From assembly GCA_019750335.1 (NCBI GenBank), contig JAIEOQ010000008.1, positions 248,001 to 312,000 of the forward strand: a stretch of DNA of 64,000 nucleotides, written 5' to 3'. Positions 1,110-24,163 of this stretch are shown here, in pieces (position 1 is the first letter of the stretch; every line of letters starts with the position of its first letter). Both the position numbers and the translations under genes were made by a program. The notes below the pieces were generated by a model that worked only from the letters and a program-made list of their open reading frames with translations, did no database searches and was not told the DNA's origin. Origin of the DNA: Candidatus Obscuribacterales bacterium. Its GTDB lineage: Bacteria; Cyanobacteriota; Vampirovibrionia; Obscuribacterales; Obscuribacteraceae.

Positions 1110-2120
1110 ATGTTGAAAATCGTCATTAAAGCCGTTTGCATCTCCCTTGCTATCTTAGGAACAGCAGTCGCTGTTTACGGATTAAGCTGGTACTTATGGC
1201 TGCAAGAGATAAACGCTTTCTCCCAGGCTTATATGACAAGCGACTATTTGAAAGCGCAGCGTCACATCAAATCTTGCCTCTGGCTGTCCGCGCCCTGCAA
1301 GGGATACGATCCACGCTACGTCAAATCACTACAGTTTCAAGCCGCTCTTTATGCCGTCCGTCGAGAGCTAAATAAAGCAATAAGCGTGCAAGAAGATGTT
1401 CTTAAACTGGCCCGCGAAAATAAATACAGCCCACTTAGTTTCGGATGGATTGTCCAGCAGTCCGCTATGGCTCTTCTTTTACGCAAAGCCGGAAGATATG
1501 CCGAAGCCGAGAATCGTTACATTGTTGTAATTACAACATTAGAGGTAAGAGTAGCTTTAGCAAAAAAAATTGCTCCTCCAGACGATCCCGAAACCGCTGA
1601 GTTACAGAGAATGCTTGCCGAAGCCCTTGATTATTCAAGCTGGGTATTGATCAAAGAAAAGAAATTCAGCGAAGCCGAAGCCATGCTTAATCGTTGCCTC
1701 GACTTAACCAAACAAGAATACGGTCCTGATTCATTCAAGCTTATTTCCCCTCAAGTCGAATTGGCTTATTTGAAAAACGAACAAGGAAAGTGGAACGAAT
1801 CACGCCCGCTTTTGGACAAAGCTCTTTCTTTTCTGAAAAAACAAACACCTGGAACTAAAACCTCGGCATATACAACTGTCGCTATCTTGACCATGGCAAA
1901 TTTATTTCGCGATCATGATTGTCCAAAAGAAGCCGAAGAGTCCTATAAGTTAGCAATTGACAGCTGCAAGCTGAATGTAGCCGGAGCTGAAAACAACCTT
2001 TTCATGACTGACATACTTACCTCTTACGCTAAACTTCTGGAACAACAGTCACGCCAGCCTGAGGCAGAAAAACTAAAAGCCGAAGCTAAAAGAATTCGCG
2101 AGCAACCGCCCCTTGAATAA
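1110..2120 (+). CDS. Membrane-anchored TPR-type protein
   Basis: 336-residue protein with one N-terminal transmembrane helix (about residues 3-25, ending near YGLSWYLW) and a helical remainder. Paired-helix repeats of tetratricopeptide type are visible: AGRYAEAENRY (about residue 130), KKFSEAEAMLNRCLDL (about 190) and CPKEAEESYKLAI (about 270). Such proteins usually scaffold other proteins; no enzymatic motif is visible. The frame is open upstream to a TTG at 1092, but the ATG at 1110 directly precedes the membrane helix and is preferred; the ribosome site is weak. The stop overlaps the TTG start of the oxidoreductase downstream by 8 bp, so the two are probably translationally coupled. The repeat count is by eye; specific partner unknown. 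Confidence 0.8.
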   Translation: MLKIVIKAVCISLAILGTAVAVYGLSWYLWLQEINAFSQAYMTSDYLKAQRHIKSCLWLSAPCKGYDPRYVKSLQFQAALYAVRRELNKAISVQEDVLKLARENKYSPLSFGWIVQQSAMALLLRKAGRYAEAENRYIVVITTLEVRVALAKKIAPPDDPETAELQRMLAEALDYSSWVLIKEKKFSEAEAMLNRCLDLTKQEYGPDSFKLISPQVELAYLKNEQGKWNESRPLLDKALSFLKKQTPGTKTSAYTTVAILTMANLFRDHDCPKEAEESYKLAIDSCKLNVAGAENNLFMTDILTSYAKLLEQQSRQPEAEKLKAEAKRIREQPPLE

Positions 2121-3444
2121 AAAACAAACACAATTTTTATCCGGCTGGGGAAGATATCCGACTTTAAGCTGCAATGTTTATCAACCGCTAAACGAATCTG
2201 AATGCAGAAGAATTATCTCTAGCGACAGCAACAGCTTTATTGCCCGCGGCGCCGGACGCGCCTATGGCGATGCAGCCATCAGCCAAACCAGCGATATCGT
2301 TATTTGCGATCGCTTGACCAAATGCTCATCATTCAACAGTCGAAACGGTATCTTGCGTTGCGAAGCCGGAGTGACAATCGGTCAAATCATTGAGACTTAT
2401 CTGCCCAAAGGCTGGTTTCCGCCGGTCGTTCCCGGAACCAAACATGTCACTGTCGGTGGTGCCATAGCCGCCGACATTCACGGCAAAAATCATCATCGTG
2501 ACGGTTCATTTTGTCGTTTCGTCAAATCAATGTCTCTCACTCTTGCTGACGGGCAAACAATTACTTGCTCACCCGAATATAACGCCGACCTGTTCTATGC
2601 CACAGCCGGCGGCATGGGTTTAACCGGAATCATAACCGAAGCCGAGTTGCAACTTATCCCGGTGAAAAGCCCGCTTATCAGTACAAAAAAAATTGTCTGC
2701 CAAGATCTAGCTTCACTTTGTACAAGTCTTGAAACAGCCGAAAAAGATTATCAATATTCAGTAGCCTGGCTTGATTGCTTATCCGAGCAAGGACGCGGCA
2801 TAGTCATATTGGGAAATCATACTCAAGTTGAATTTCCCAACACAAAATTTTTTACGCCACTTAGCGTGCCGGACATAGTGCCATCAGGACTAATCAACGG
2901 TTTGACTATCGGACTTTTCAATGAAGCGTATTACCAAAAAGCCATTTCAGAAAAAAAAGAAAGCATGGCTGGCTACAATCAGTTTTTCTTTCCACTCGAT
3001 GTGCTAAACAACTGGAATCGTCTTTACGGCAAATCCGGCTTCACACAATACCAATGTGTGCTGCCCTCCGAGAACGCTTTGCCAACTATGCAAGCAATGC
3101 TTAAGCATCTGCGCCAAAACAACTCAGCACCTGCTCTTGCCGTCCTAAAAAGATTCGGCGCACAAAATAACGATGCTCCACTTTCATTCCCAATGCCGGG
3201 CTATACTCTTGCTTTAGACATAGCTGTTCATCCAGCGCTTCAGGCTGTACTTGCCGAAATGGATCAAATGGTCATTGCTGAAGGCGGGCGTGTTTATTTA
3301 GCTAAAGATGCTTTTCTAACGCCTGAGAGTTTCCGCGCCATGTACAAACATTTCCCTGAATGGTTGGCGATTAAAAACAAATACGATCCGCAAAACAAGT
3401 TTTCATCAGCTCTCAGTCAGCGCTTGCGGATGAACAAACTCTGA
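2113..3444 (+). CDS. FAD-linked oxidoreductase, DprE1-like
   Basis: 443-residue flavoenzyme of the FAD_binding_4 / decaprenylphosphoryl-ribose oxidase (DprE1) type. Evidence is the FAD-binding signature ARGAGRAYGDAA near residue 48 and the family block GTKHVTVGGAIAADIHGKNH near residue 115, which is very close to the DprE1 version, followed by a GGMGLTGII motif near 175. DprE1 oxidises polyprenyl-phospho-ribose at C2; whether this homologue uses that substrate or another polyprenyl-phosphate or sugar alcohol cannot be read from sequence. No DprE2-like reductase is adjacent. The start is a TTG overlapping the previous stop, typical of coupling. Family assignment is strong, substrate is inferred. 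Confidence 0.88.
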   Translation: MNKKQTQFLSGWGRYPTLSCNVYQPLNESECRRIISSDSNSFIARGAGRAYGDAAISQTSDIVICDRLTKCSSFNSRNGILRCEAGVTIGQIIETYLPKGWFPPVVPGTKHVTVGGAIAADIHGKNHHRDGSFCRFVKSMSLTLADGQTITCSPEYNADLFYATAGGMGLTGIITEAELQLIPVKSPLISTKKIVCQDLASLCTSLETAEKDYQYSVAWLDCLSEQGRGIVILGNHTQVEFPNTKFFTPLSVPDIVPSGLINGLTIGLFNEAYYQKAISEKKESMAGYNQFFFPLDVLNNWNRLYGKSGFTQYQCVLPSENALPTMQAMLKHLRQNNSAPALAVLKRFGAQNNDAPLSFPMPGYTLALDIAVHPALQAVLAEMDQMVIAEGGRVYLAKDAFLTPESFRAMYKHFPEWLAIKNKYDPQNKFSSALSQRLRMNKL

Positions 3445-4135: not shown

Positions 4136-6538
4136 TCAAACTGACCTACTACCCTTTTTCGCCCCGAATAAAGAAATAAAAGCCATTATATAAACAACAA
4201 CGCCAAGCCAGAAAAGCGTAGAGATGCCAAAAACGATAGAGACGAGCAACGCTAGCACTGAGCCGCATACCGAGCCGGCACCGTTGATACCCCAATAAAG
4301 TGGAATAAGCTTGGCGTTGTTTTGGGCGCAAGCTTTAATGCCAGCAGGGAAAGCGCAGCCCATGAAAAAGCCGATTACAGCAAGCAAAGCCATGGCAACT
4401 GCTAAACGTGTCGATGTTTCTGCGCCACGGAAAAGTTCAAATAGATAGGGGCTAGCTAAGCCATAAAGAATAAGTGAGATTGGTAACGCAGCAACTGTTT
4501 TAAGCGGTGTCGAGATGCGCTCACTGAAATAGCTGCCGATGCCGCTGGCGACAAGCAAAGTAAATAGAACTACTGTGATGCCATAGACCGGATGCCCAAG
4601 AAAAACTATGCAACGTTGTATCTGCGAAATTTCAACAAACATGAAACCCACGCCGATACACAAGAAATAAAGCATAAAAGGACCAGCACCGTTGAAATCA
4701 TATTTTTCTTTGGCAAAACGCAAAGGCAGATAAATGCATAGATAAGAGAAGCCGATGCTGGAAAGGACGAGTCCGAGCAATGTAGCCACTGCTTGTAGGT
4801 TGAAAGTATAGGAGAATTGTTTTTTCAAATCATGATTGTAAGCATTCTCCAGCCGCATCATGTTAAAAAAGAAAGGGCTGTCGTCTGTAGGCGGCGCAAT
4901 GTTCAAAGGAAAGTTTTTGTAGACCTCCAGAGGGCTTTCTTTGCCGGCGAGTTGGGTGAACATTGGGTCAATAGATGTATTCGGGCTGAGAATAATTTCA
5001 AAGCCCAGCGGTTCACAAAGGTTTTTCAGATCGCTAAGTTGATTTTTAGTGAAGGGTGAGCGACTAACAAGCATGATGCCAACACCGTCCGGTCCGTCCT
5101 TTTCGGTAGTGGCTGGGATGTTGCGAATAATCACCATATGCTTGCGCGGGTCAGCGACTTTTTGTCGGCGCAAAGATTCAGCAGCAAGGGCTGTAAGTCG
5201 ATACATTTCAGCCGGTGTTTTACGTTCATACCAGCGCGAGACGCTGAATATGCCCTGAGGGCTTAAATGGCTGAGAAAAACATCCCAACCTTCAACCGTA
5301 TAAAGCGCATTTTCAGTAAGAACATAGGCACCGCTGGCAGTAGCAGCCCAAGTATCAATGAAAGACATTTCGATAATGTCAAAGTGCTTATTCGAGCGCG
5401 TAATATGACTACGAGCTTCATCATTGACAAACTTGACGTTAGGCAGCTTATCCAAATGTCCGGTGAAATCACCGAATTTATCATTGACTGCAGCAATAAT
5501 ATTGTTATTGATATCCACTGCTTCAACACTCTTGGCGCCAAGGGCCAGAGCCGACACTAAGTCATAGCCGCCGCCGGAACCGATGATTAAAACGTCGGCA
5601 TTTTTCTTTAGTTGATAAACCAAATTGGAAGCGTTGTAACGCAGAAAATCCAGCTTGCTATAATCACCGTCAAAGCCGACCATTGTCGTACGAGCACAGC
5701 CGTCAATCTCCAGGTTCAAGCCTTTACTCGGATGAGTAAAACGATAGGCTGAGCTTATGCCCGGATAATAGAAATGCAAAGGTTTGGTCAGATCACCCCA
5801 AACTGTAACTCGCGAAAATGAGTTCCACTTTTCATATAGCGGCTTTTCTACATATTCGCCTTTAACCCAATAAATACGCACGGCACCAGGCAAATCATTG
5901 TTGAAAAGATAGCTATGGGCAAGCGTGCATACACCAAGAGCAAGAGTAGTGCAATATACGGCAAGACGAAACTGACGCGGGCATGAAGTAGCAAAACAAG
6001 AAGCAGCGACACAAGCCCAGAAAGCAACAAATAATACAGCGCTAAAGCCATCTAGCAAGTTGAGAGAAGTAACTAACAACAAGCAGCCGGCAGCGGCTCC
6101 ACAAAGATCAGCTGCATATAATCGACCGATTTTTTCGTTGTACGACTTGAACAAAAGCGATATGAGCATACCGCCAAAAATAAATGGCACTGAAACACAA
6201 GCATAAGTAAAAGCAGTCGAGAGCGATTGCAGAATCGGATTGTTCCCCGGCGGCAGCGCGATATGCAAAAACAAAGAAACAACCACGGACAAAGCACAAA
6301 AAAGACTAAGTTTGCTTGCCCGGGCAAACAAGCCTTCAGTTTCTTGCAGAGCCGGAAAAACATAAAGGAGCATTGCCCCTAGCGTCATGCCGAACATGGC
6401 TGTTGAAACAGCCATAAAAGCAAAGTGATAATACATAGTAACGCTGAAAATACGGGTCAGCAGAAGCTCATACATCAAAGTGGCTAAAGCAATAAAGAAT
6501 AAGCCGAGATATATCGAGCGTGACATTTGATTACTCAT
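4136..6538 (-). CDS. Fused membrane protein/spermidine synthase-like
   Basis: 800-residue last gene of the sugar-nucleotide operon. Residues 1-220 hold about six transmembrane helices, starting [20 protein letters not shown]; residues about 300-480 form a Rossmann-type aminopropyltransferase-like domain with VLIIGSGGGYDLVSAL and EAVDINN (the acidic residue that normally binds the nucleoside ribose); residues about 570-800 hold further helices. The usual catalytic VDxxDP segment of spermidine synthases is replaced by IIEMSFIDTWAAT, so polyamine synthesis is doubtful. Its start overlaps the stop of the upstream paralogue by 4 bp (ATGA). Membrane-bound spermidine-synthase-like proteins are widespread but poorly characterised; the operon suggests a role in glycan modification or export, which is inference. 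Confidence 0.82.
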   Translation of the reverse strand: MSNQMSRSIYLGLFFIALATLMYELLLTRIFSVTMYYHFAFMAVSTAMFGMTLGAMLLYVFPALQETEGLFARASKLSLFCALSVVVSLFLHIALPPGNNPILQSLSTAFTYACVSVPFIFGGMLISLLFKSYNEKIGRLYAADLCGAAAGCLLLVTSLNLLDGFSAVLFVAFWACVAASCFATSCPRQFRLAVYCTTLALGVCTLAHSYLFNNDLPGAVRIYWVKGEYVEKPLYEKWNSFSRVTVWGDLTKPLHFYYPGISSAYRFTHPSKGLNLEIDGCARTTMVGFDGDYSKLDFLRYNASNLVYQLKKNADVLIIGSGGGYDLVSALALGAKSVEAVDINNNIIAAVNDKFGDFTGHLDKLPNVKFVNDEARSHITRSNKHFDIIEMSFIDTWAATASGAYVLTENALYTVEGWDVFLSHLSPQGIFSVSRWYERKTPAEMYRLTALAAESLRRQKVADPRKHMVIIRNIPATTEKDGPDGVGIMLVSRSPFTKNQLSDLKNLCEPLGFEIILSPNTSIDPMFTQLAGKESPLEVYKNFPLNIAPPTDDSPFFFNMMRLENAYNHDLKKQFSYTFNLQAVATLLGLVLSSIGFSYLCIYLPLRFAKEKYDFNGAGPFMLYFLCIGVGFMFVEISQIQRCIVFLGHPVYGITVVLFTLLVASGIGSYFSERISTPLKTVAALPISLILYGLASPYLFELFRGAETSTRLAVAMALLAVIGFFMGCAFPAGIKACAQNNAKLIPLYWGINGAGSVCGSVLALLVSIVFGISTLFWLGVVVYIMAFISLFGAKKGSRSV

Positions 6539-8580
6539 TTCCAGTTGATTACCGACATCAGGTTAGATTGATCGTCGGTCCAAACACGCATATCTTTGGG
6601 GCTTGGTGTTTGATCGACATAAAATTTGCTGGCATCAGGAGACTTGATTTTGGCAAAAGCCGTAAGCTCCTCAATCATGGATGGCTCTTTGCTCATCACC
6701 ACATACATGGCACCTTTGCTGACCATGACACAGCTTTTCAAGCCAAGCTCTTCAGCTAATTTACCAAGCAAAGGCGGCAAATTAAGATAAGAGTTGCTGA
6801 CATGAAAAACAAGCAGTCCGTCATTTTTCAGATGCTTCAAATAAATTTCAGCAGCTTGTTTAGTAAGCAAATGGCACGGGATAGCATCACCGTTGAAAGC
6901 ATCGACAATAAGCACATCAAAAGCCTGGGGTGATAGTTTTTCCAGAATTGCTCTGCCGTCACCGACACTTATGTCGAGAGTCGCTTTAGTACGTTTCAAA
7001 AAGGTAAAATGTTCTTTGGCGATACGTACTACTTTTGGATCCAATTCAAAGAAATGAATGCGATCCCCAGGTTTGCCATAAGCCCCAAGCACACCAACAC
7101 CTAAGCCAACATCACCGTAGCTGATTGGATTTGTTCCGCGTTTTTGACGAATGAACTCATCGACTATATTTACTTGCTCCCAGTAAACACCGGCAGGTGT
7201 ATCTTGCTTAGCCGGGTCAATATATTGCTGTCCATGATTGACTTTGCCATGGTACATCACTAAACATTCGTCTTCTTTTTTCACTTGTACGGCGCTATAA
7301 AAATTGCGTTGGCGGTCAATTATGTTCGGACCGCGTCCCAAACCGAAAGCAGCAACAACTAAAGTAATTCCAACTAAAGCCAAAGAGAGATAGCCTAAAG
7401 TTTTATTCGGACGAGCAAGAAACTGTTTGATTGAAAGTTGATAAACGCTATAAACAGCAATACAAGCCAACACTATAATGCGCTCGGCGTTGAATTCGAA
7501 AATAAGCGGTGTGACGATACCAACTAAAAATCCACCTAAAAAGCCGCCTAAAGCAATAGCTAAATAAAAGGTTGTCAGCTTTTCAGCTTTTGGCTTACTT
7601 AAAGCAAGCTCGCCGTTGCAGATCATGCACAGCTGAAAAATCAGTATCAAATTCAAAAGCAAACGCAACAAAAATCCGCCTTGAGGCAAGAACTGCTCGC
7701 AAGCAGCTATCGGCATCCAGGAGATCAAATAAAGATCACGCTTATAAGTGGACACATTGCCAAAAACAAAAATGAAGCTCAATAGATAAAGAGCCAGAGG
7801 TAACACCCACAGCAAGGGCATCGGTGATACGTCTGCTGTTATATAAGCTGTCGATGACATCAAAACAGCCGAACCTAAAGCGCTAAATAAAGTCCAGAAA
7901 ACAAATTGGCGCGGCAATATTTTTTCAGCAAGCTCAGAAACAACTTGATTGCTGACAGCGACAACCGGCGATAAATTCCGCCAAGTAAGAAAAGCTGCTC
8001 CACAAGCCATGATTGCCATGGCTAAAAAAGATACTGCCCAATAATTTACTGTAGAACCGATAGTAAAGTTGGATTCAATTACTGTCGGATAACACAAAAG
8101 AGCAAGCATAGAGCTAAAGTTAGAGATGCTGTAAAGACGATAAGGATCGCCTAACTGAGCCATACGAAACCAAACTTGCATAATCCCGCTCACTGTAGAA
8201 AGCATAATTGCCGGAATCGCTATATTGGCAAAGAGCGTTTTTAAGAGCGAGAAAGCCGGCTCAATATCAGGATCACAATGCCAACTGCTGCCAGTCAAAT
8301 TGAATGCTGAAAATGTAGCCAAAGCTAACAAAGAGAGATAAACAAGTATTTGGCGGCGCCCGGGAAGACTGTTTAGAACAGAACTTAAAGCATAACCAAG
8401 CAAAAGCGTGGTCTGAAAAAAGAGCAAACAAACGTTCCAAACACTGGCGGTACCGCCAAAACGTGGAATGACTATTTTGCCGACTACAGGCTCAATTAAA
8501 AAGAGTAAAAAAGCACCAAAAAAAACTGTGCTTCCAAGCAAAACAGCTAACAATCTTTTTTCGGGTAAACCTTCGTTCAT
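6535..8580 (-). CDS. Fused membrane protein/spermidine synthase-like
   Basis: 681-residue paralogue of the downstream gene, with a different order of emphasis: about twelve transmembrane helices in residues 15-430 (first helix [18 protein letters not shown]), then one soluble Rossmann domain (about 480-650). The family landmarks are [14 protein letters not shown], the acidic [14 protein letters not shown] and [19 protein letters not shown]. In true spermidine synthases the last block reads IVDxxDPxGP; here the second Asp pair is replaced by Phe-Asn-Gly-Asp, a form common in membrane-fused members. Overlaps both neighbours by 4 bp, so it is cotranslated with the acyltransferase upstream and the second copy downstream. 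Start at the ATG before NEGLPEKR. Confidence 0.84.
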
Positions 8581-9251
8581 TTTCGATAACGCAAAACTTT
8601 CGCCGGCACACCGGCGACAACAGCATAAGGCTCCACATCAGCCGTAACGATAGCGCCAGCCCCGACGATAGCACCTTCACCGACAGTGATACCAGGCAAC
8701 AAAACGGCGTTAGCACCAATGTCAGCCCATTTGCATACACGCACAGGCAGAATCTCCAAATCAGTTTTTAAGATTGGTTGATCCACAGGCATTGCCGTAT
8801 GTTCGGAGCCGATAACTTTAGCTCCTGGTCCCCAACCGACATAATCTTCCAGAATTAAATCACGAGCATCAAAATAACTGTGCGGTCCGATCCAGACATT
8901 GCTGCCTATCTGGCAGCGCCCATCGAAACGTCCTTGAATAATGCTTTGAGCACCGATAAACACATTGTCGCCTAACTCAAAAGTTTCAATATGTTTGACA
9001 GTGATATTTTCTTCTACTTTCAACCCTTGTCCGATTTTAGGGCAAAGAGCATGCCAGAGAATACGACGCATCATTCGATCAAACTGTGAGCCGCCGGCAC
9101 AATGCCGGCCAAGCAATAAAGTCAGCTCTTCTTGGGTGCTGGTTTGGCGCAAATGCTCAGCCATGCCCAGCTCAAACTCAGGATCCGGACTGACTTGAGC
9201 GTTAGCGTGAACAGCCGGCACTACACGTTTAGTATCTTTTGACTTGCTCAT
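8577..9251 (-). CDS. Hexapeptide-repeat acyltransferase (WcaF-like)
   Basis: 224-residue left-handed beta-helix acyltransferase. The C-terminal 110 residues show the isoleucine-patch repeats ([43 protein letters not shown]) and end with the family signature [14 protein letters not shown]. The N-terminal region up to residue 85 includes [20 protein letters not shown], similar to WcaF-type colanic acid acetyltransferases. These use acetyl-CoA to O- or N-acetylate sugars. It sits 6 bp after the fused dehydrogenase-aminotransferase and overlaps the following membrane protein by 4 bp, so it belongs to the operon; it may decorate the finished glycan, while the other hexapeptide enzyme (12643-13128) would act at nucleotide level. 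Confidence 0.86.
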
Positions 9252-9257
9252 ACTTTT

Positions 9258-11699
9258 TTAGCCGGTAACTCCAATCAAGGCATCCTTAATTACACTTACC
9301 ACTCGAGCCACCTGATCTTCACTCATTTGGTCTTGCAAAGGCAAAATCAAACCTAAATCCTGACTTTCTTCGCTAATTTTCAGAGATTGAGACAGTTTGG
9401 AGCGATCCAAATAAGCACCTTCTCGATGAGCGCACATAATTCCCGGGCGAGTTTCAATGCCATGGCTTTGCAAAATATTGCTCACTCGTTCGCGAATTTG
9501 CTTGTTGGGCAAGCGAATACAAAAACTTTGCCAGTTACTTTTAGCCCAGGCCGGTTCAGCAGGCAATGTTATTTCATTTAGACCGGACAGCAAATTTTTA
9601 TACACAGCTGCCAACTGCCGACGTCGTTCAACCAAGCCAGGCAAGCGTTTTAGCTGCTCGCGTCCGACCGCCGCTTGAATATCAGTCATTCGATAATTAA
9701 AACCGATAAGCGGATAAGCACCATTTTCGAGGCCATGGTTGCGCAATTGTTTGAGCAAACGATCTTTATCAGAACTTTTGCTTGTAATCATGCCGCCATC
9801 ACCTGTAGTTAATAGTTTCCGCGGATGGAAAGAGAAGCAAGCAAAGTCGGCATGAGGACGGCCAATACGTTCCCATTGCCCGTTCAACTGAATTTCGCTA
9901 CCAGCGGCACAAGCCGCATCTTCAACTAGAGGCAGTTTGTGTTTAGCAGCTATTGTTAGCAATGCTTGCAGATTGCAGGGCAGACCCATTTGATCCACAC
10001 AAAGAATCGCTTTGGTTTTAGCTGAAATTGCTTTTTCCACAAGCTCAGGGTTGATATTAAAAGTATCCGCTTCAACATCAACAAAAACAGGCGTTGCTCC
10101 GCAATAATGAATACTGTTTGCAGTGGCAATAAAAGAATGACTAACTGTAATTACTTCATCCCCCGGTCCAACACCGCAAGCTAACAAAGCCAGGTGCAAA
10201 GCTGCCGTTCCCGAAGAGACAGCTGTAGCATGTGGCGCTCCGCAATATTCGGCAAACTCGGCTTCTAAAGCTGCAACTTGCGGACCTTGCATAATCCAAC
10301 CGGAACGAATGGCACTGGCCGCCGCCAAAGCTTCCGGACTGGCAAGAACCGGCTTTGCCAGCGCCATAAAAGGTTCTTGGTCTTCAGCATCAGGCAGGCT
10401 CGAAGCAGATTGTCTGCCGATCCCCATATAACCTAAAGCAGCAGCTTCGATTGTTTGCGGCTGCCAAAAATTTCGCCCATCAACGATAAAGCGGCAACCA
10501 CGCTTGTACAAAGAGGCAAAATCCGGATTAGTAAAAGCATCATGAGCAGTGTTCAAAATAATAATTTCTGGGATGACATCAGCTTCAAGAGAGCTCGGCA
10601 CAAAGCCGGCCTGTTCGATTTCATCGTTGTTGTACAAAGGATCACAAAGCAGTACACGCGCACCGCGACTTTCAAGCTCATGACGTAAAAGAAAAGCCGG
10701 CGAAAGAATGGATTCTTTTACTTGAGGGCGAAAAGCCAACCCTAAAATAAGTACGGCTTTGTCAGCAATCTTGCCATATTTACGTTCCAGGCCATCAACA
10801 ACATAAACCGGCTGCATATCGTTGATTAGGCGGCTGTCACCGACCAAGCTGGCTGACACATGGCGTTTGTCGGCATCATGCAATAAGAAATATGGATAAA
10901 CCGGTGTGCAATGTCCGCCTACACCTAAGCCCGGTTCAAGAATTGACGCCTCACCATCGGTGTTGGCCGCTTTCAATACTGATTTGATATCAACATTTAC
11001 CGCGTCGGCATAACGAGCCAGCTCGTTAGCCAAAGCAATGTTCACATCCCGATAGACCATTCCGGCAAGCTTTACCAGCTCAGCCGCTTCCAGAGTAACG
11101 ACATTTATTATCGGTGCTTTTAAATAACGCGAATAAAAGACAGCAGCACGCTCAGCTGCAGCTTCGTTTATACCGCCAACGATTTTGGAAGTTTTGGACA
11201 AATTAGCAAGCACCTTTTGGCTCTTTACACGTTCAGGCGAAAAAACAAGATCAAAGTCTTGACCGGCTTTTAAACCGGTCGATTCAAGAATCGGCAGCAA
11301 AGTACGCGTGCCGCCGACAGGCAATGTTGTTTCATAGGAGACCATGATGCCCGGCTTCATGCCGGCAGCTATGTTTTGCGAAACAACTTTTATCACCGAA
11401 AGATCCGCATGACGATCAGCTGTGAGCAAAACCGGAACAATGACGATCACTACATCGCTCTCACTTACAGCTTGAATAGTGTCGGTAGTAGCTTTAAGCT
11501 GCTTGCGCCCAACAACGTCATTAAGAACAGCAGCTAGACCGGGCTCATCAAAAGGAGCAAGTCCTTGATTGATCGTATCGACTACCGCTTGATTGACGTC
11601 ACAAGCGAATACTTTGGCACCGCCTTGGGCCAAAGCACAAGCAAGCGGCAAGCCCATTTTGCCGGCTCCAATTACAGCGACAGTATCAATTTTGTCCAT
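9258..11699 (-). CDS. Fused nucleotide-sugar dehydrogenase-aminotransferase
   Basis: 813-residue natural fusion. Residues 1-425 are a UDP-glucose/GDP-mannose dehydrogenase-family enzyme: Rossmann start VAVIGAGKMGLPLA, the middle-domain block AELVKLAGMVYRDVNIALANE and the catalytic cysteine C264 in GLGVGGHCTPVYPYFL. Residues about 445-810 are a DegT/DnrJ/EryC1/StrS PLP aminotransferase: SSGTAALHLAL (about 495), VEDAACAAGS with D594, and the Schiff-base lysine K628 in FHPRKLLTTGDGGM. Separate proteins with these activities (WbpA and WbpE) oxidise UDP-GlcNAc to the uronic acid and later aminate its 3-keto derivative. Linker is short, about 20 residues. All key residues are present, so both halves should be active. 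It overlaps the SDR gene by 14 bp. Confidence 0.93.
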   Translation of the reverse strand: MDKIDTVAVIGAGKMGLPLACALAQGGAKVFACDVNQAVVDTINQGLAPFDEPGLAAVLNDVVGRKQLKATTDTIQAVSESDVVIVIVPVLLTADRHADLSVIKVVSQNIAAGMKPGIMVSYETTLPVGGTRTLLPILESTGLKAGQDFDLVFSPERVKSQKVLANLSKTSKIVGGINEAAAERAAVFYSRYLKAPIINVVTLEAAELVKLAGMVYRDVNIALANELARYADAVNVDIKSVLKAANTDGEASILEPGLGVGGHCTPVYPYFLLHDADKRHVSASLVGDSRLINDMQPVYVVDGLERKYGKIADKAVLILGLAFRPQVKESILSPAFLLRHELESRGARVLLCDPLYNNDEIEQAGFVPSSLEADVIPEIIILNTAHDAFTNPDFASLYKRGCRFIVDGRNFWQPQTIEAAALGYMGIGRQSASSLPDAEDQEPFMALAKPVLASPEALAAASAIRSGWIMQGPQVAALEAEFAEYCGAPHATAVSSGTAALHLALLACGVGPGDEVITVSHSFIATANSIHYCGATPVFVDVEADTFNINPELVEKAISAKTKAILCVDQMGLPCNLQALLTIAAKHKLPLVEDAACAAGSEIQLNGQWERIGRPHADFACFSFHPRKLLTTGDGGMITSKSSDKDRLLKQLRNHGLENGAYPLIGFNYRMTDIQAAVGREQLKRLPGLVERRRQLAAVYKNLLSGLNEITLPAEPAWAKSNWQSFCIRLPNKQIRERVSNILQSHGIETRPGIMCAHREGAYLDRSKLSQSLKISEESQDLGLILPLQDQMSEDQVARVVSVIKDALIGVTG

Positions 11700-12639
11700 G
11701 TTGTTTGAACCAAGCCAGTGTTTTTTCCAAGCCTTGAGGCAAGCTTACTTTAGGTTCAAATTTAAGCATGCGACGGGCTAAATCGATAGACGGCACACGA
11801 GCTCGCACTTCGGAATGGACACCTTCGCGATGCTCGATTTTGGCATGAGAATCCAGGCTGGCCATCATTCGCGCCAAGCTTAAAGTGGTTACTACTTCTT
11901 TCGGATTGCCGATATTGAAGACTCGCTCTTCTTGCGAAATGCGGTCGATAGCCGCAATGACTGCATCAACCAGATCGTCGATATAGCACCAAGCTCGTAT
12001 AGCCGAACCATCGCCATAGACTTGCATTGCTTGCCTGGCCGCCACAGCTCGACAAAAATTGCTCACTGCACCTTCGCCAACTTGACGGGGTCCATATATA
12101 TTGAAAGGACGAATGATCGTGCAGCCGAATCCATATTTATCGGCATAACGCAAAACAAAATTTTCACCGGCAAGCTTGCTTGTGGCATAAACCCAGCGTG
12201 ACTCGGCTACCGGTCCGATACCGCATGGCCGGTTTTCATCCACCCAAAGAGCATCGGAACCGTAAACTTCGCTGGTAGAGAAATAAACGAATGAACCGAT
12301 ACCAGCCTTAGCTGCTTGTTCCAATACATTGACCGTACCTAAAATATTGGTCTGCAACGTACGCAACGGCTCGGCATAATAGCTGGATACTCCAGCGATG
12401 GCCGCCAAATGAACGACAACGTCAACTTCGGACAAAGCTTCGGCTATGGCAACCGGATCTTCGACATTACCGTTGACTATATTTACACGACGATTTTGCG
12501 AAAGCTGCGGTGCGAATTTCAAAGAATCACGCCGAAAATTGTCAAAAAGCGTAATCTCCCAACTTGCCAATCCGCACAGTCTTTCAGCTAAATGAGTGCC
12601 GATGAAGCCGGCGCCGCCTGTGATCAGAATCTTTGCCAC
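11686..12639 (-). CDS. NAD-dependent epimerase/dehydratase (extended SDR)
   Basis: 317-residue extended short-chain dehydrogenase. The N-terminal MAKILITGGAGFIGTHLAERL is the NAD-binding glycine motif, VVHLAAIAGVSSYY and YFSTSEVYGS follow, and the catalytic pair lies in WVYATSKLAGENF (Tyr-x3-Lys). The block IIRPFNIYGPRQ and a C-terminal substrate domain are typical of sugar-nucleotide 4-epimerases and 4,6-dehydratases. Given the neighbouring 6-dehydrogenase it most likely epimerises a UDP-uronic acid, but a dehydratase is possible. Three bases separate it from the acyltransferase upstream. Confidence 0.88.
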   Translation of the reverse strand: MAKILITGGAGFIGTHLAERLCGLASWEITLFDNFRRDSLKFAPQLSQNRRVNIVNGNVEDPVAIAEALSEVDVVVHLAAIAGVSSYYAEPLRTLQTNILGTVNVLEQAAKAGIGSFVYFSTSEVYGSDALWVDENRPCGIGPVAESRWVYATSKLAGENFVLRYADKYGFGCTIIRPFNIYGPRQVGEGAVSNFCRAVAARQAMQVYGDGSAIRAWCYIDDLVDAVIAAIDRISQEERVFNIGNPKEVVTTLSLARMMASLDSHAKIEHREGVHSEVRARVPSIDLARRMLKFEPKVSLPQGLEKTLAWFKQHGQN

Positions 12640-12642
12640 AAC

Positions 12643-13128
12643 TTATTCCTTTACCAACACTCGCGACGGATTGCCGACAACAACAGCTCCGGCAGGCACA
12701 TCTTTAGTAACTACGGCGCCGGCGCCAACAAGAGCATTTTCGCCGATTGTGACATCACACATAATTACTGCGCCCGAGCCAATCGACGCCCCTTTTTTGA
12801 TACGTGTCGGACGGACTTGCCAGTCGGATTCATTTTGCAAAGCACCGCCAGCGGTGGCAGCTTTCGGCCGGCGGTCATTTATAAAAACAACGCCATGACC
12901 GACAAAAACTTCATCCTCGATGATCACCCCTTCGCAAACGAAAGTATGACTTGATATTTTACAACGGTCACCAACCACGGCATTTTTTTGAATTTCGACA
13001 AAAGTACCGATTTTGCAATTACGCCCGATTTTACAGCCGTAAAGGTTAACGAAATCAGCAACATAAGTGTCTTCGCCGATGACGACATCAGGCGATATTT
13101 TTTGCAAGGGTCCGCCAACAAACATCAA
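12643..13128 (-). CDS. Sugar-nucleotide N-acyltransferase (WbpD/WlbB-like)
   Basis: 161-residue left-handed beta-helix enzyme made almost entirely of hexapeptide repeats (VVIGEDTYVADFVNLYG onwards). The block GHGVVFINDRRPKA is characteristic of WbpD/WlbB, which N-acetylate the 3-amino group of UDP-2-acetamido-3-amino-uronic acid, and the end AVVVGNPSRVLV is the usual C-terminus. Its place directly after the Gfo/Idh oxidoreductase (4-bp overlap) and before the SDR and dehydrogenase-aminotransferase reproduces the WbpB-D-E-A gene set. Full length for the family. Start is the first of two consecutive ATGs. Confidence 0.9.
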   Translation of the reverse strand: MMFVGGPLQKISPDVVIGEDTYVADFVNLYGCKIGRNCKIGTFVEIQKNAVVGDRCKISSHTFVCEGVIIEDEVFVGHGVVFINDRRPKAATAGGALQNESDWQVRPTRIKKGASIGSGAVIMCDVTIGENALVGAGAVVTKDVPAGAVVVGNPSRVLVKE

Positions 13129-14162
13129 TGGACCCCCATCAGTACAACTTTTTGCGATTGACCGCTTTTCAGCGAAACATCGGCAAGCTCCAGAAGCTGC
13201 ACAACACGCCGCCCGGCCTCACCATCGCTTATCGGCTTATTGCCGCTTAAAACGCAGTCGATAAAATGTCGCGTTTCAATGCGCAAAGCTTCGGTCAAAT
13301 CATAAACCGGTGCCCGCATCTCCCCATGACGATATTGAATCAGAGCGCGATAACGTTCGCGATCTGTTTCGGGCGCTTTCATCGTATCGATCCCTTTATC
13401 GTACACTCGCACTTTATCGCTTTGACTGGAATCGTCAAATACAATCATACGTCTGGAACCGCCGATAAAAATCTGCCTGATTTTAACCGGTGAAAGCCAG
13501 CTTACATGCACATGAGCGATCAGATCGTCGGCAAAGCTTAAGGTCAAATAAACAATGTCTTCGACAGCATTTTCGGTGTGAGAAGCACCGATAGCATGCA
13601 CCGAAAGCGGTGTGCGCCCAAGCAAATAATCCATGATCGCAATATCGTGAGCGCCAAGATCCCACATCACGTTTACGTCAGCTTGAAATAAGCCGAGATT
13701 AGCTCGCATCGAGTTGAAATAAAGCAGATCGCCCAGCTCCTCTTTTTCGAGCAACTGTTTCATCAGCCGCACCGGTCCATGATAAAGAAAAGTATGATCG
13801 ACCATCAGGATCAAACCTTTCTTGCGGGCCAGTTCAATCAGCTCAGTACATTCTTTCGAGCTGCGACACATAGGTTTTTCAACTAAAACATGCTTGCCCA
13901 TTGACAAAGCTTGTTTAGCCAGCTCAAAATGCGTCTCCACCGGAGTAGCAATCACTATCGCTTGCAAACTGCTATCGTTAAGCAGGTCTTCGTAATTGGT
14001 GGTAAACACCACATTTTGATACTGGCTGCGATACTGCTTAAGGCGCTCCGGATCGCGATCACAAATGTATTTGATCTCCACGCGTTCATCGCTATGGAAA
14101 TTACGCGTTAAGTTCGGGCCCCAATAACCGTACCCGACGATACCTAGTTTTACTTGTTGCAC
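13125..14162 (-). CDS. Gfo/Idh/MocA oxidoreductase (WbpB-like)
   Basis: About 345 residues. It starts VKLGIVGYGYWGPNLTRNF (NAD-binding), followed by IVIATPVETHFELAKQAL and the lysine-containing HVLVEKPMCRSSKE, the catalytic signature of Gfo/Idh/MocA enzymes; DHTFLYHGPVRLMKQLL and WDLGAHDIAIMDYLLG are the WbpB/WlbA-type second-domain blocks. WbpB oxidises the 3-hydroxyl of UDP-GlcNAcA before transamination. The frame is open to a TTG at 14246, but that codon lies within the -35 box of the operon promoter; the GTG at 14162 is placed just before the conserved strand and is preferred. First gene of the seven-gene operon. Confidence 0.9.
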   Translation of the reverse strand: MQQVKLGIVGYGYWGPNLTRNFHSDERVEIKYICDRDPERLKQYRSQYQNVVFTTNYEDLLNDSSLQAIVIATPVETHFELAKQALSMGKHVLVEKPMCRSSKECTELIELARKKGLILMVDHTFLYHGPVRLMKQLLEKEELGDLLYFNSMRANLGLFQADVNVMWDLGAHDIAIMDYLLGRTPLSVHAIGASHTENAVEDIVYLTLSFADDLIAHVHVSWLSPVKIRQIFIGGSRRMIVFDDSSQSDKVRVYDKGIDTMKAPETDRERYRALIQYRHGEMRAPVYDLTEALRIETRHFIDCVLSGNKPISDGEAGRRVVQLLELADVSLKSGQSQKVVLMGVH

Positions 14163-14184
14163 GCTTGCCAAGCTACCACACGGA

Positions 14185-14212
14185 TTGACAAAATCAACGG
14201 CGTTCCTACAAT
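14185..14212 (+). promoter_or_regulatory. Promoter of the glycosyltransferase unit
   Basis: TTGACA (14185-14190), 16-bp spacer, TACAAT (14207-14212), about 52 bp upstream of the GTG at 14264. A close match to the housekeeping consensus. Lies inside the transcribed leader of the divergent operon. Confidence 0.62.
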
Positions 14213-14217
14213 GGTTA

Positions 14218-14246
14218 AGTTTATCAGCGAAGCCAGGATTGGTCAA
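14218..14246 (-). promoter_or_regulatory. Promoter of the uronic-acid sugar operon
   Basis: On the minus strand TTGACC (14246-14241), 17-bp spacer, TAAACT (14223-14218). Transcription would begin near 14211, about 50 bp before the GTG at 14162. It is back to back with the plus-strand promoter at 14185-14212, so the two units may interfere with each other. Confidence 0.55.
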
Positions 14247-14263
14247 AGGCGGAGGAGCAAGAC

Positions 14264-15187
14264 GTGCAGCAACAAACAGGCACGATCTTATCCGTGGTTG
14301 TGCCTTTGTACAACGAAGAAAGCAACTTCTCCTCCCTCCTGCAATCTCTGAAAGAACTTGAGACTAATCTGCCTGCCGTAAAATTCGAATTTATTTTTGT
14401 CGACGACGGCTCAACCGATCGCACTTATGAGCTGGCGTCCGCCGCCGCCAAAACAGCAAATATCACAGCTCTGAAACTGGCGCGCAACTATGGCAGCCAC
14501 GCCGCAATCGCCGCCGGTTTTTTGCAGGCCAACGGCAACTGCGCTTTATTTATCGCCGGCGACATGCAAGATCCCCCCGAGTTAATCAGCGAAATGCTTG
14601 AAGCCTGGCAGCAAGGCTACAAAATAGTTTGGGCGGCACGCAGTAAAGTCGAAGGCAAGTCTTTGAGCGGCACTTTCTTCTCTAATTTCTATTGGCATCT
14701 TTTCAATTTAGCTGTTGATCATCCGGTGGTGGCCGGTGGCGTTGATTTTGCTTTGATCGATCGCACGGCTCTACTCGCTCTCAAAGAACAAGCCCAAGCA
14801 GCAATCCCGATTTTCGCTCAAATAACCGAAACCGGTTACCCGGCAAAAACAATTCGCTATGTAAAAAGAGAACGCGCCGGCGGCAAATCCGGTTGGACCC
14901 TGAAAAAGAAATTTGCTCTTGTTTTTCAAACTCTATCTTTTTCAACAAAACCTTTTCGTCTTTTCTGCCTGGCCGGCATGCTTCTTACCGGTTTTAGCTT
15001 GATTTATGCGCAGTTCGCTTCATCGTCCCCCGCCCTAACCATCAGCGGTCATATTTTTATTCTGGCCCTTTTCGGACTGGCAATCTTATTGATGGAATAT
15101 CTGGGGTTGCGCCGGCGCGCATCAAATTCGATACCACGTTTTCAAATTGAACGCATTGCCGACCGCGGCCACGAAAGAGCGCTATGA
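14264..15187 (+). CDS. GT2 glycosyltransferase, GtrB/ArnC-like
   Basis: 307-residue polyprenyl-phosphate glycosyltransferase type. The N-terminal GT-A domain has LSVVVPLYNEESNF, FIFVDDGSTDRTYE and LARNYGSHAAIAAGF, then GDMQDPPELI as the second acidic site; two transmembrane helices at about residues 240-290 close the protein, as in GtrB, ArnC and DPM1-type enzymes that attach a sugar to undecaprenyl or dolichyl phosphate at the membrane. The GTG start is preceded by GGAGG with a 7-base spacer. The last 4 bp overlap the membrane-protein gene downstream, suggesting that the lipid-linked sugar is used by that protein. Confidence 0.9.
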   Translation: MQQQTGTILSVVVPLYNEESNFSSLLQSLKELETNLPAVKFEFIFVDDGSTDRTYELASAAAKTANITALKLARNYGSHAAIAAGFLQANGNCALFIAGDMQDPPELISEMLEAWQQGYKIVWAARSKVEGKSLSGTFFSNFYWHLFNLAVDHPVVAGGVDFALIDRTALLALKEQAQAAIPIFAQITETGYPAKTIRYVKRERAGGKSGWTLKKKFALVFQTLSFSTKPFRLFCLAGMLLTGFSLIYAQFASSSPALTISGHIFILALFGLAILLMEYLGLRRRASNSIPRFQIERIADRGHERAL

Positions 15188-21886: not shown

Positions 21887-24163
21887 TTGGAATTGGGCAG
21901 CAAGGAATCACTGAACACGGAAAAGGTCTGTGTGGCTTGCGGTCGGGAGTTTCCCGGCGACGTTGAAGTTTGCCCCGATGACGGTACTTTGCTCACCCCC
22001 CTTACCAAAGAACCCAAAGCTGGTGACATTTTTGCCGAACGCTATGAGATTCTTGGAATCATCGGCGACGGTGGGATGGGTAAAGTTTACAAAGCCAAGC
22101 ACAATTTGATGAAACGGGTGGTCGCAATTAAATTGCTTCTTCCCCATCTGGTCTCAAGCGCTTCCGCTCTCAAACGTTTTCAACAAGAAGCTCAAGCTGC
22201 CAGTGCTTTGAATCACCCGAACATTCTTACTGTTTATGATTTCGGCATTTCAAATCAAGGCATGCCCTTTATGGTCATGGACTTTTTGGAAGGGACGAAC
22301 TTATCAACGTTAATTCAAGAGCGCGGTCATTTAAGCATCAATCAAGCTTTAGCCATATTTACTCAGGCCTGCTCCGGTCTTGCTCATGCTCACCAAAAAG
22401 GGGTGATTCATCGCGACTTGAAGCCAGCAAATTTAATGCTTGTAGATTATGACGGTCAGACCGATTTTCTCAAAGTCGTCGACTTCGGCATTGCGAAGCT
22501 GCTTCAACCTGACAGTTCAACAGCCGAGCCTTTAACTCACACCGGCGAAGTTTTCGGCAGCCCTCTATATATGAGCCCGGAGCAATGCCGCGGTTTGGAG
22601 CTGGATCAACGTTCCGACATTTATTCTTTAGCTTGCGTTCTATATAGAAGCGTTACCGGACGTCCGCCTTTTGCCGGCGGCACCCCGATGGAATGCATGT
22701 ACAAACAGGTTAATGAATCGGTAATTTCTTTTAGCGACGCCTGTCCGGAACTAAATTTACCTGAAGCTCTGGAAAGAATCATTTTCAAAGCGATGGATAA
22801 GAATCCGGACAATCGTTATCAAAGCATGCTTGAGTTTCATGATGCTTTATCCGAATTGGCCGTGCTTTATCCATACGGCAAGAAGACTGTACGTGTTTTT
22901 TCAGTGCCGCCTTCTTCACCACTGGCAGTATCAACCGAAGATCTAACCGACAAAATTTCACGTAAAGAGAATGCTCTTGAAGCATTGGAAAAGCAAGATT
23001 ATTCCGCCCAGAAAGAGCCGCCGACAGCACCAACAAGAGCGCTAGAAGAGATACAGCAAAATCTAGCAGCAAAGCTTTCCACCGCCGGCAGCAAAAAAAT
23101 GATCATCAGTACTGTTGCCGGAATAGCTCTTTTAGCTTTAGCACTTTTCGCTGTGCAAACCTTGCAAAAACCGGTCGAAGTGCCACCGGAGAATGCACCG
23201 CTCACCGGCAACCCGCAGCAACAAGTGGATGAGCTGATTGATGATTCGACAACAGCTACCAATCAGGGCGACTATACCAAAGCCACTGAAGCGCTCGAGC
23301 GAGCAGTCAAATATACCGATGAAATGAAAGATCCTAACCCGAGCTTGGTAAAGGTTCTGCCGCCGCTGGGCAAACTTTACTTTCAATCAAGTAAATTCGA
23401 ATTGGCTCAACAAACATATGAACGCTTGCTTCCTCTGCAAAAGAAAGTGGATGGCGCCGACTCAATTCCGGTCGCTCAAACAAAAACATATATCGCTTTG
23501 TCTTTAGTCGCTCAAGGCAATCTTGATGATGCCGTGCCGCTCTTAAACTCAGCTTTAAGCGCCTATAAAAAAGTCGGACCAAAAGAACGTACTGGTTATT
23601 CCGATGTTCTTTATGGTTTAGCTAAAGTTAAAACCCAGCAGGGACAATACGCCCAAGCAATCAACACCTTGAACCAAGCGATTAGCCTAAAAACACAACA
23701 AGATGGACCTGACAGCCCCGATGCCGCGGCTTATATGGATGACCTCGGTCAAGTTTATTTATTGCAAAACAAGCTTCCTCAAGCCGAATCGATACTGAAT
23801 AAAGCACTGGCGATCAAACAAGCCAAGCTTGGTGCCGGCTCCTTAGGTGCAGCCGATACTTTGAAAAACCTCGGTACTCTATATTTTCAAAAAGGAAACT
23901 TAGACAAATCGGAAGCGATGTTCACTCAAGCACGGACGATCAAAAACCAAGATCTCGGTCAAAAAAGCCTCGGCGCCGCAGAGATAATGACCGCCTTGGC
24001 CATGCTTTATACACGCGAACAAAAATATGCTCAGGCTGATGCGCTTTTTCAGCAAGCTTTGGCCATACGAACCCAGGAGCTAGGACCTAACGCTCCTTCG
24101 GTTAAACGGACAAAAGATCTTTATGCCGTTTTGAAGCAAAAAATGCAAGGCAAAAAACGTTGA
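21887..24163 (+). CDS. Ser/Thr protein kinase with zinc ribbon and TPRs
   Basis: 758 residues in four parts. Residues 12-35 form a CxxC...CP.DG zinc-ribbon (C15, C18, C29). Residues 53-320 are a Hanks-type kinase: glycine loop GDGGMG (60-65), Lys82, HRDLKPAN with D177, DFG at 199, APE-like YMSPEQC. A single transmembrane helix near 403-422 follows a flexible linker. The outward-facing rest carries about six TPRs of the kinesin-light-chain type (DYTKATEALERAVKY, GQYAQAINTLNQAISL, NLDKSEAMFTQARTI). The start is TTG with GAGG upstream. The 4-bp overlap couples it to the methyltransferase gene. Kinase activity is well supported; ligand and targets unknown. Confidence 0.93.
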   Translation: MELGSKESLNTEKVCVACGREFPGDVEVCPDDGTLLTPLTKEPKAGDIFAERYEILGIIGDGGMGKVYKAKHNLMKRVVAIKLLLPHLVSSASALKRFQQEAQAASALNHPNILTVYDFGISNQGMPFMVMDFLEGTNLSTLIQERGHLSINQALAIFTQACSGLAHAHQKGVIHRDLKPANLMLVDYDGQTDFLKVVDFGIAKLLQPDSSTAEPLTHTGEVFGSPLYMSPEQCRGLELDQRSDIYSLACVLYRSVTGRPPFAGGTPMECMYKQVNESVISFSDACPELNLPEALERIIFKAMDKNPDNRYQSMLEFHDALSELAVLYPYGKKTVRVFSVPPSSPLAVSTEDLTDKISRKENALEALEKQDYSAQKEPPTAPTRALEEIQQNLAAKLSTAGSKKMIISTVAGIALLALALFAVQTLQKPVEVPPENAPLTGNPQQQVDELIDDSTTATNQGDYTKATEALERAVKYTDEMKDPNPSLVKVLPPLGKLYFQSSKFELAQQTYERLLPLQKKVDGADSIPVAQTKTYIALSLVAQGNLDDAVPLLNSALSAYKKVGPKERTGYSDVLYGLAKVKTQQGQYAQAINTLNQAISLKTQQDGPDSPDAAAYMDDLGQVYLLQNKLPQAESILNKALAIKQAKLGAGSLGAADTLKNLGTLYFQKGNLDKSEAMFTQARTIKNQDLGQKSLGAAEIMTALAMLYTREQKYAQADALFQQALAIRTQELGPNAPSVKRTKDLYAVLKQKMQGKKR

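Follow-up and report, generated by a model that had tools for sequence, protein, structure and literature searches.

A fused dehydrogenase-aminotransferase gene in a nucleotide-sugar operon

We analysed a stretch of 64,000 nucleotides from a Candidatus Obscuribacterales bacterium, hereafter the window. Its minus strand carries a sugar operon in which a Gfo/Idh dehydrogenase, a hexapeptide acetyltransferase, a short-chain dehydrogenase/reductase (SDR), the fusion gene studied here and a second hexapeptide acetyltransferase follow one another in the order of transcription. The features are as follows.

13125 to 14162, minus strand: Gfo/Idh/MocA dehydrogenase, predicted UDP-sugar 3-dehydrogenase; start codon uncertain, the reading frame being open to 14246
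12643 to 13128, minus strand: hexapeptide N-acetyltransferase, predicted 3-N-acetyltransferase; nearest solved relatives the WxcM-like 4mzu and the lipopolysaccharide acetyltransferase 3mqg (WlbB)
11686 to 12639, minus strand: SDR of the Pcryo_0617 oxidoreductase/decarboxylase type, with STSEVYG and YATSK; 14-nt overlap with the start of the fusion gene
9258 to 11699, minus strand: whole fusion gene, 813 aa in one open frame
10458 to 11684, minus strand: NDP-sugar 6-dehydrogenase half, residues 6-414 (Pfam, NCBIfam, alignments)
10368 to 10415, minus strand: linker between the domains, about residues 429-444, predicted to be disordered
9288 to 10328, minus strand: DegT/DnrJ/EryC1/StrS aminotransferase half, residues 458-804, of the C4-aminotransferase type (Pfam, phmmer, tree, Foldseek)
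8577 to 9251, minus strand: second hexapeptide acetyltransferase, a possible 4-N-acetyltransferase judging by its position

An earlier note, made from the sequence of this DNA, had read the 813-codon frame as a dehydrogenase joined to a DegT/StrS aminotransferase, and this was confirmed on the minus strand. The frame starts with an ATG at 11699 and runs through 813 codons without interruption; translation of 9258-11699 on the plus strand gave many stops. Pfam assigned residues 6-414 to a complete UDPG_MGDP_dh unit of three domains (N, central and C) and residues 458-804 to a complete DegT_DnrJ_EryC1 domain, both far above the cut-off. The catalytic C264 (in GGHC) and the PLP lysine K628 (in FHPRK) were unchanged in all six fusions that were aligned. 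AlphaFold modelled both halves confidently, with a mean pLDDT of 87.9, and residues 432-441 of the linker, whose length differs from fusion to fusion, had a pLDDT below 50. The pTM was 0.53. Each half is folded in the model, but the disordered linker holds them in no fixed orientation to one another, so the model does not tell how the halves are arranged.

We also considered an internal start that would yield a separate aminotransferase. The candidate, Met445 (ATG), has no clear ribosome-binding site, and it is not a conserved feature, since the aligned fusions L039, L009 and L040 have no Met at this position. Counts of promoters and terminators in a scan of 8000-14600 were equal to those in shuffled sequence and thus uninformative. 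Directly downstream of the operon, and overlapping it by 4 nt, tandem genes at 4136-8580 (minus strand) encode two large proteins with spermidine-synthase-like domains, one of which matches a model for fused MFS/spermidine synthases.

The fusion recurs in three phyla

We identified one fusion of this kind in the whole genome and the same architecture in eight genomes from three phyla, namely four Obscuribacterales, three Acidobacteriota (among 297 sampled genomes) and one Elusimicrobiota (L039, the sole carrier among 248). Intact full-length fusions were found in a Candidatus Obscuribacter genome (G017/L037), in G013, in L038 and two further Acidobacteriota, and in L039; the gene of the remaining genome (G030/L040) is interrupted where contigs end, and two contigs carry its matching pieces. 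The full-length open frames in other genomes share 53-60% identity, which excludes the frameshift or assembly join that the earlier note had named as a refuting finding. The source is a draft genome of 14 contigs, but an annotation or assembly artefact has a negligible probability and is already refuted, because independent genomes of three phyla carry the architecture intact.

The distribution is patchy even inside the order, where 4 of 53 genomes, including that of the window, carry the fusion. Searches of 301 Chloroflexota and 237 Omnitrophota yielded no fusion at the cut-offs used. Among the Chloroflexota, 11 genomes encode near unfused aminotransferases at 53-57% identity, and in an omnitrophote and a sphingobacterium the unfused aminotransferase and dehydrogenase genes adjoin in reversed order. 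The aminotransferase halves of the eight fusions formed a single clade with support of 91/93; for the dehydrogenase halves, the tree neither showed nor rejected a single fusion clade (p-AU 0.25). The patchy spread over three phyla suggests a single fusion event followed by lateral transfer. As far as the literature searched shows, the fusion has not been described as such, while its component enzymes are of known kinds and the pathway proposed below has precedents.

The aminotransferase half groups with C4 enzymes

The earlier note had called the second half WbpE-like. By sequence, its best solved relatives were perosamine synthase and a Psychrobacter enzyme (8vr5/8vr3), with WbpE well behind (219 bits for perosamine synthase vs 142 for WbpE). 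The top Foldseek matches included Pcryo_0618 (8vr5, 35% identity) and ArnB; also listed was a Vibrio vulnificus aminotransferase whose PDB title contains the fragment 'responsible for the biosynthesis of 2,3-diacetamido-4-a...'. However, the C3-type enzyme 7b0d reached 207 bits in the pairwise search, almost as high as 221. Because pairwise bit scores alone do not decide between C3 and C4 enzymes, we built a midpoint-rooted tree. The fused aminotransferases grouped with Pcryo_0618 and perosamine synthase, separated by a 100/99 split from the DesV/QdtB-type C3 enzymes, and the WbpE-type enzymes of the sister operons fell on the DesV/QdtB side of this split.

The active-site motif pointed the same way. 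The fusion and Pcryo_0618 have CFSFHPRK in common, whereas the other group mostly has CFSFYPGK. The fused half thus lacks both the grouping and the FSFYPxK motif of WbpE-type C3 enzymes, and it combines a position among solved C4 sugar aminotransferases with the PLP lysine. As clade and motif match C4 enzymes, we predict that the fused aminotransferase transaminates C4. The WbpE-like label is not supported: tree, motif and the weaker WbpE score speak against it, as do the separate WbpE-type enzymes of the sister operons.

Some of the near unfused Chloroflexota aminotransferases (L080, L082-L089) lie beside a WbpE-type aminotransferase, a Gfo/Idh gene and an SDR that is not Pcryo_0617-like. These SDRs have SSSASVYG or SSSEVYG motifs, and the one tested (L084) was nearest to epimerases. 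The aminotransferase clade is therefore not tied to the decarboxylase alone.

The dehydrogenase half has two replaced active-site residues

The dehydrogenase half belongs to the nucleotide sugar dehydrogenase superfamily TIGR03026 (329.5 bits vs a cut-off of 189.8), and no NCBIfam equivalog reached its cut-off. UDP-GlcNAc as its substrate is suggested by gene context. When compared with the canonical active site of human UGDH (Cys276, Lys220, Asn224 and Asp280), the fusion keeps the cysteine (C264) and the lysine (K210), but Asn is replaced by Met214 and Asp by Tyr268. The four solved relatives that were compared keep both residues, the Asn at position +4 from the catalytic Lys and the Asp at +4 from the catalytic Cys, and so does the UDP-glucose-dehydrogenase-like protein of the window's own genome.

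Besides the window's dehydrogenase stretch (10416-11699), Met214 and Tyr268 were also identified in unfused kin (L041-L047, L049 and L100), so that the replacements extend across the subfamily, fused or not. The catalytic water of human UGDH is bound by Asp280, and replacing this residue with Asn is detrimental (PMC3184952). Two residues that the solved relatives keep are missing from this subfamily of 6-dehydrogenases, and one of the two has a central part in the accepted mechanism. We think that the variant may still yield the acid through a modified active site, since Cys264 and Lys210 are retained and Wbp-like clusters that would require the acid have this variant too (L049).

A decarboxylase-type SDR always adjoins the fusion

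The top structural match of the SDR was the oxidoreductase/decarboxylase Pcryo_0617, at about 40% identity, with 252 bits in a separate search; epimerases and UDP-glucuronate decarboxylases followed. Besides having this closest solved relative, the SDR carries STSE and YxxxK motifs, and STSE and YATSK were unchanged in its orthologues. On this basis the SDR is predicted to decarboxylate. It lies directly upstream of the fusion in 8/8 genomes, with its gene overlapping or abutting the fusion in every genome seen. In Psychrobacter cryohalolentis K5 the counterparts Pcryo_0617 and Pcryo_0618 (PDB 8vr2, 8vr3 and 8vr5) have neighbouring gene numbers; there the aminotransferase is a separate chain of 374-380 aa, whereas in the window it is fused to the 6-dehydrogenase.

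Each of the eight fusion genomes also has a Gfo/Idh homologue. In the window, this protein scored 161.9 bits against the nearest NCBIfam model, UDP-GlcNAc 3-dehydrogenase, which is below the cut-off of 450, and its match to the solved Bordetella enzyme 3q2k, which we take to be WlbA, was weak (39.5 bits). The earlier note had proposed the protein at 13125-14162 as the assay partner of the fusion; it is indeed a Gfo/Idh/MocA dehydrogenase, but the direct upstream neighbour of the fusion is the SDR at 11686-12639. The second acetyltransferase had no close solved relative.

In L037, L038, L090, L091 and L039, a WbpE-type aminotransferase gene belongs to the operon or lies close to it. L037 has the complete six-gene set (Gfo/Idh, acetyltransferase, C3-aminotransferase, SDR, fusion and second acetyltransferase), and L090 and L091 have the same six genes reordered. 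In G030 an aminotransferase gene lies between the Gfo/Idh gene and the SDR, and in G013 a Gfo/Idh gene and an aminotransferase occur together on another contig. The operons of the window and of L092 have no C3-aminotransferase. Three genes of the WbpE/DesV type are present elsewhere in the window's genome, none of them beside a Gfo/Idh gene. The C3 arm of the window is therefore either completed in trans or unused.

A proposed route to a triamino pentose

We infer that the fusion is a bifunctional enzyme in the synthesis of a rare UDP-amino-sugar; it probably serves the first step and a late C4 amination of a route to a UDP-2,3,4-triacetamido-trideoxy-pentose of the arabinose type. The N-terminal half would oxidise C6 of UDP-GlcNAc to the uronic acid. 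A C3 arm of Gfo/Idh dehydrogenase, separate WbpE-type aminotransferase and first acetyltransferase would then give UDP-2,3-diacetamido-glucuronic acid. The SDR may oxidise C4 of this sugar, with C6 lost as CO2, to give a UDP-4-keto-pentose, which the C-terminal half of the fusion would transaminate at C4. The second hexapeptide acetyltransferase could acetylate the new amine, and the resulting UDP-2,3,4-triacetamido-trideoxy-pentose would be destined for a surface glycan. The O-antigen of Psychrobacter cryohalolentis contains 2,3,4-triacetamido-2,3,4-trideoxy-L-arabinose (PMC8040287). Psychrobacter and Vibrio provide precedents for this type of pathway, which the proposal would extend to uncultured Obscuribacterales, Acidobacteriota and Elusimicrobiota.

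Several features resemble the Wbp pathway of Pseudomonas aeruginosa (WbpA-WbpB-WbpE-WbpD), namely the types of 6-dehydrogenase, putative Gfo/Idh 3-dehydrogenase and hexapeptide N-acetyltransferase. Unlike that pathway, the window has no adjacent WbpE, its fused aminotransferase is of the C4 type and a decarboxylase SDR is present. Of the Wbp reading in the earlier note, a candidate C3 arm with Gfo/Idh and hexapeptide acetyltransferase genes is there, but the enzyme next to the fusion is a Pcryo_0617-type SDR and not WbpB. Its statement that 2-oxoglutarate recycles the NAD in the WbpB/WbpE couple agrees with the literature for P. aeruginosa but does not extend to every species (PMC10622841).

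Other readings of the fusion share part of this evidence. A shorter route on UDP-GlcNAc, with the dehydrogenase, the SDR as decarboxylase and 4-oxidase, and the fused 4-aminotransferase, would end in a UDP-2-acetamido-4-amino-pentose. Its logic is that of ArnA/ArnB in the formation of UDP-Ara4N, the fused halves being steps 1 and 3 around an SDR whose gene touches the fusion wherever it was seen, and it agrees with the presence of ArnB among the top structural matches and with the operons of the window and L092, which do without a C3-aminotransferase. We nevertheless consider it unlikely, as it leaves unused the Gfo/Idh protein that all eight fusion genomes encode, and likewise the C3-aminotransferase and acetyltransferase that mostly stand beside it. 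A true WbpA-WbpE fusion, to which the Gfo/Idh enzyme would supply a 3-keto-uronic acid for amination at C3 on the way to UDP-2,3-diacetamido-glucuronic acid, would employ the Gfo/Idh and WlbB/WxcM-like enzymes and account for the window operon having no other aminotransferase; moreover, unfused dehydrogenase kin in Armatimonadota (L049) sit in clusters of acetyltransferase, Gfo/Idh and WbpE-type genes. We regard this reading as quite improbable, because tree and motif place the aminotransferase half with C4 enzymes, sister operons have a separate WbpE-type enzyme beside the fusion and the always-adjacent decarboxylase SDR would be left without a role.

The replaced residues of the dehydrogenase raise the idea that oxidation by this half ends with the C6 aldehyde, or that the aldehyde is released, and that the fused PLP enzyme takes it directly to give a 6-amino sugar. 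The loss of Asn and Asp across the subfamily and the role of Asp280 in human UGDH would suit such a hand-over, which would make the fused steps consecutive and, if true, the protein a self-contained oxidase-aminase that makes 6-amino nucleotide sugars by true channelling. We consider it highly improbable, however, as the catalytic Cys264 and Lys210 are unchanged in the fusions, unfused members have these replacements as well, among them those from clusters that would need the acid (L049), and the adjacent SDR is of a decarboxylase type that requires a uronic acid.

In the triamino pentose route that we favour, as in the shorter one, the SDR step comes between those of the two fused halves, and direct channelling between the fused sites is therefore unlikely. 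The earlier suggestion of direct channelling is thus not supported, as every version of the pathway places at least the SDR step between the fused reactions and the structure model has no fixed pose. A fixed ratio of the enzymes, or their clustering around the SDR, is most likely the more economical reason for the fusion than direct hand-over. The fusion, with which the SDR gene overlaps, would fix the stoichiometry and bring the enzymes together around the SDR. The conserved covalent joining of a first and a late, non-consecutive pathway enzyme suggests that selection has favoured a fixed stoichiometry or a decarboxylase-centred cluster. A similar logic is known from the route to UDP-4-amino-4-deoxy-L-arabinose, which likewise passes from a uronic acid by oxidative decarboxylation to a 4-keto-pentose and its C4 transamination, and in which ArnA also carries two pathway enzymes on one chain. 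ArnA, however, combines decarboxylase and formyltransferase, whereas the fusion combines dehydrogenase and aminotransferase, and its predicted sugar is a UDP-GlcNAc derivative.

Other genes in the window

Two further genes lie outside the operon on the plus strand. The one at 21887-24163 encodes a PknB-type serine/threonine kinase (339.9 bits, below the cut-off of 450). The other, at 2113-3444, encodes a DprE1-like oxidase whose 420.7 bits fall short of the NCBIfam cut-off of 500; such an enzyme is unexpected outside mycobacterial-type arabinan pathways.
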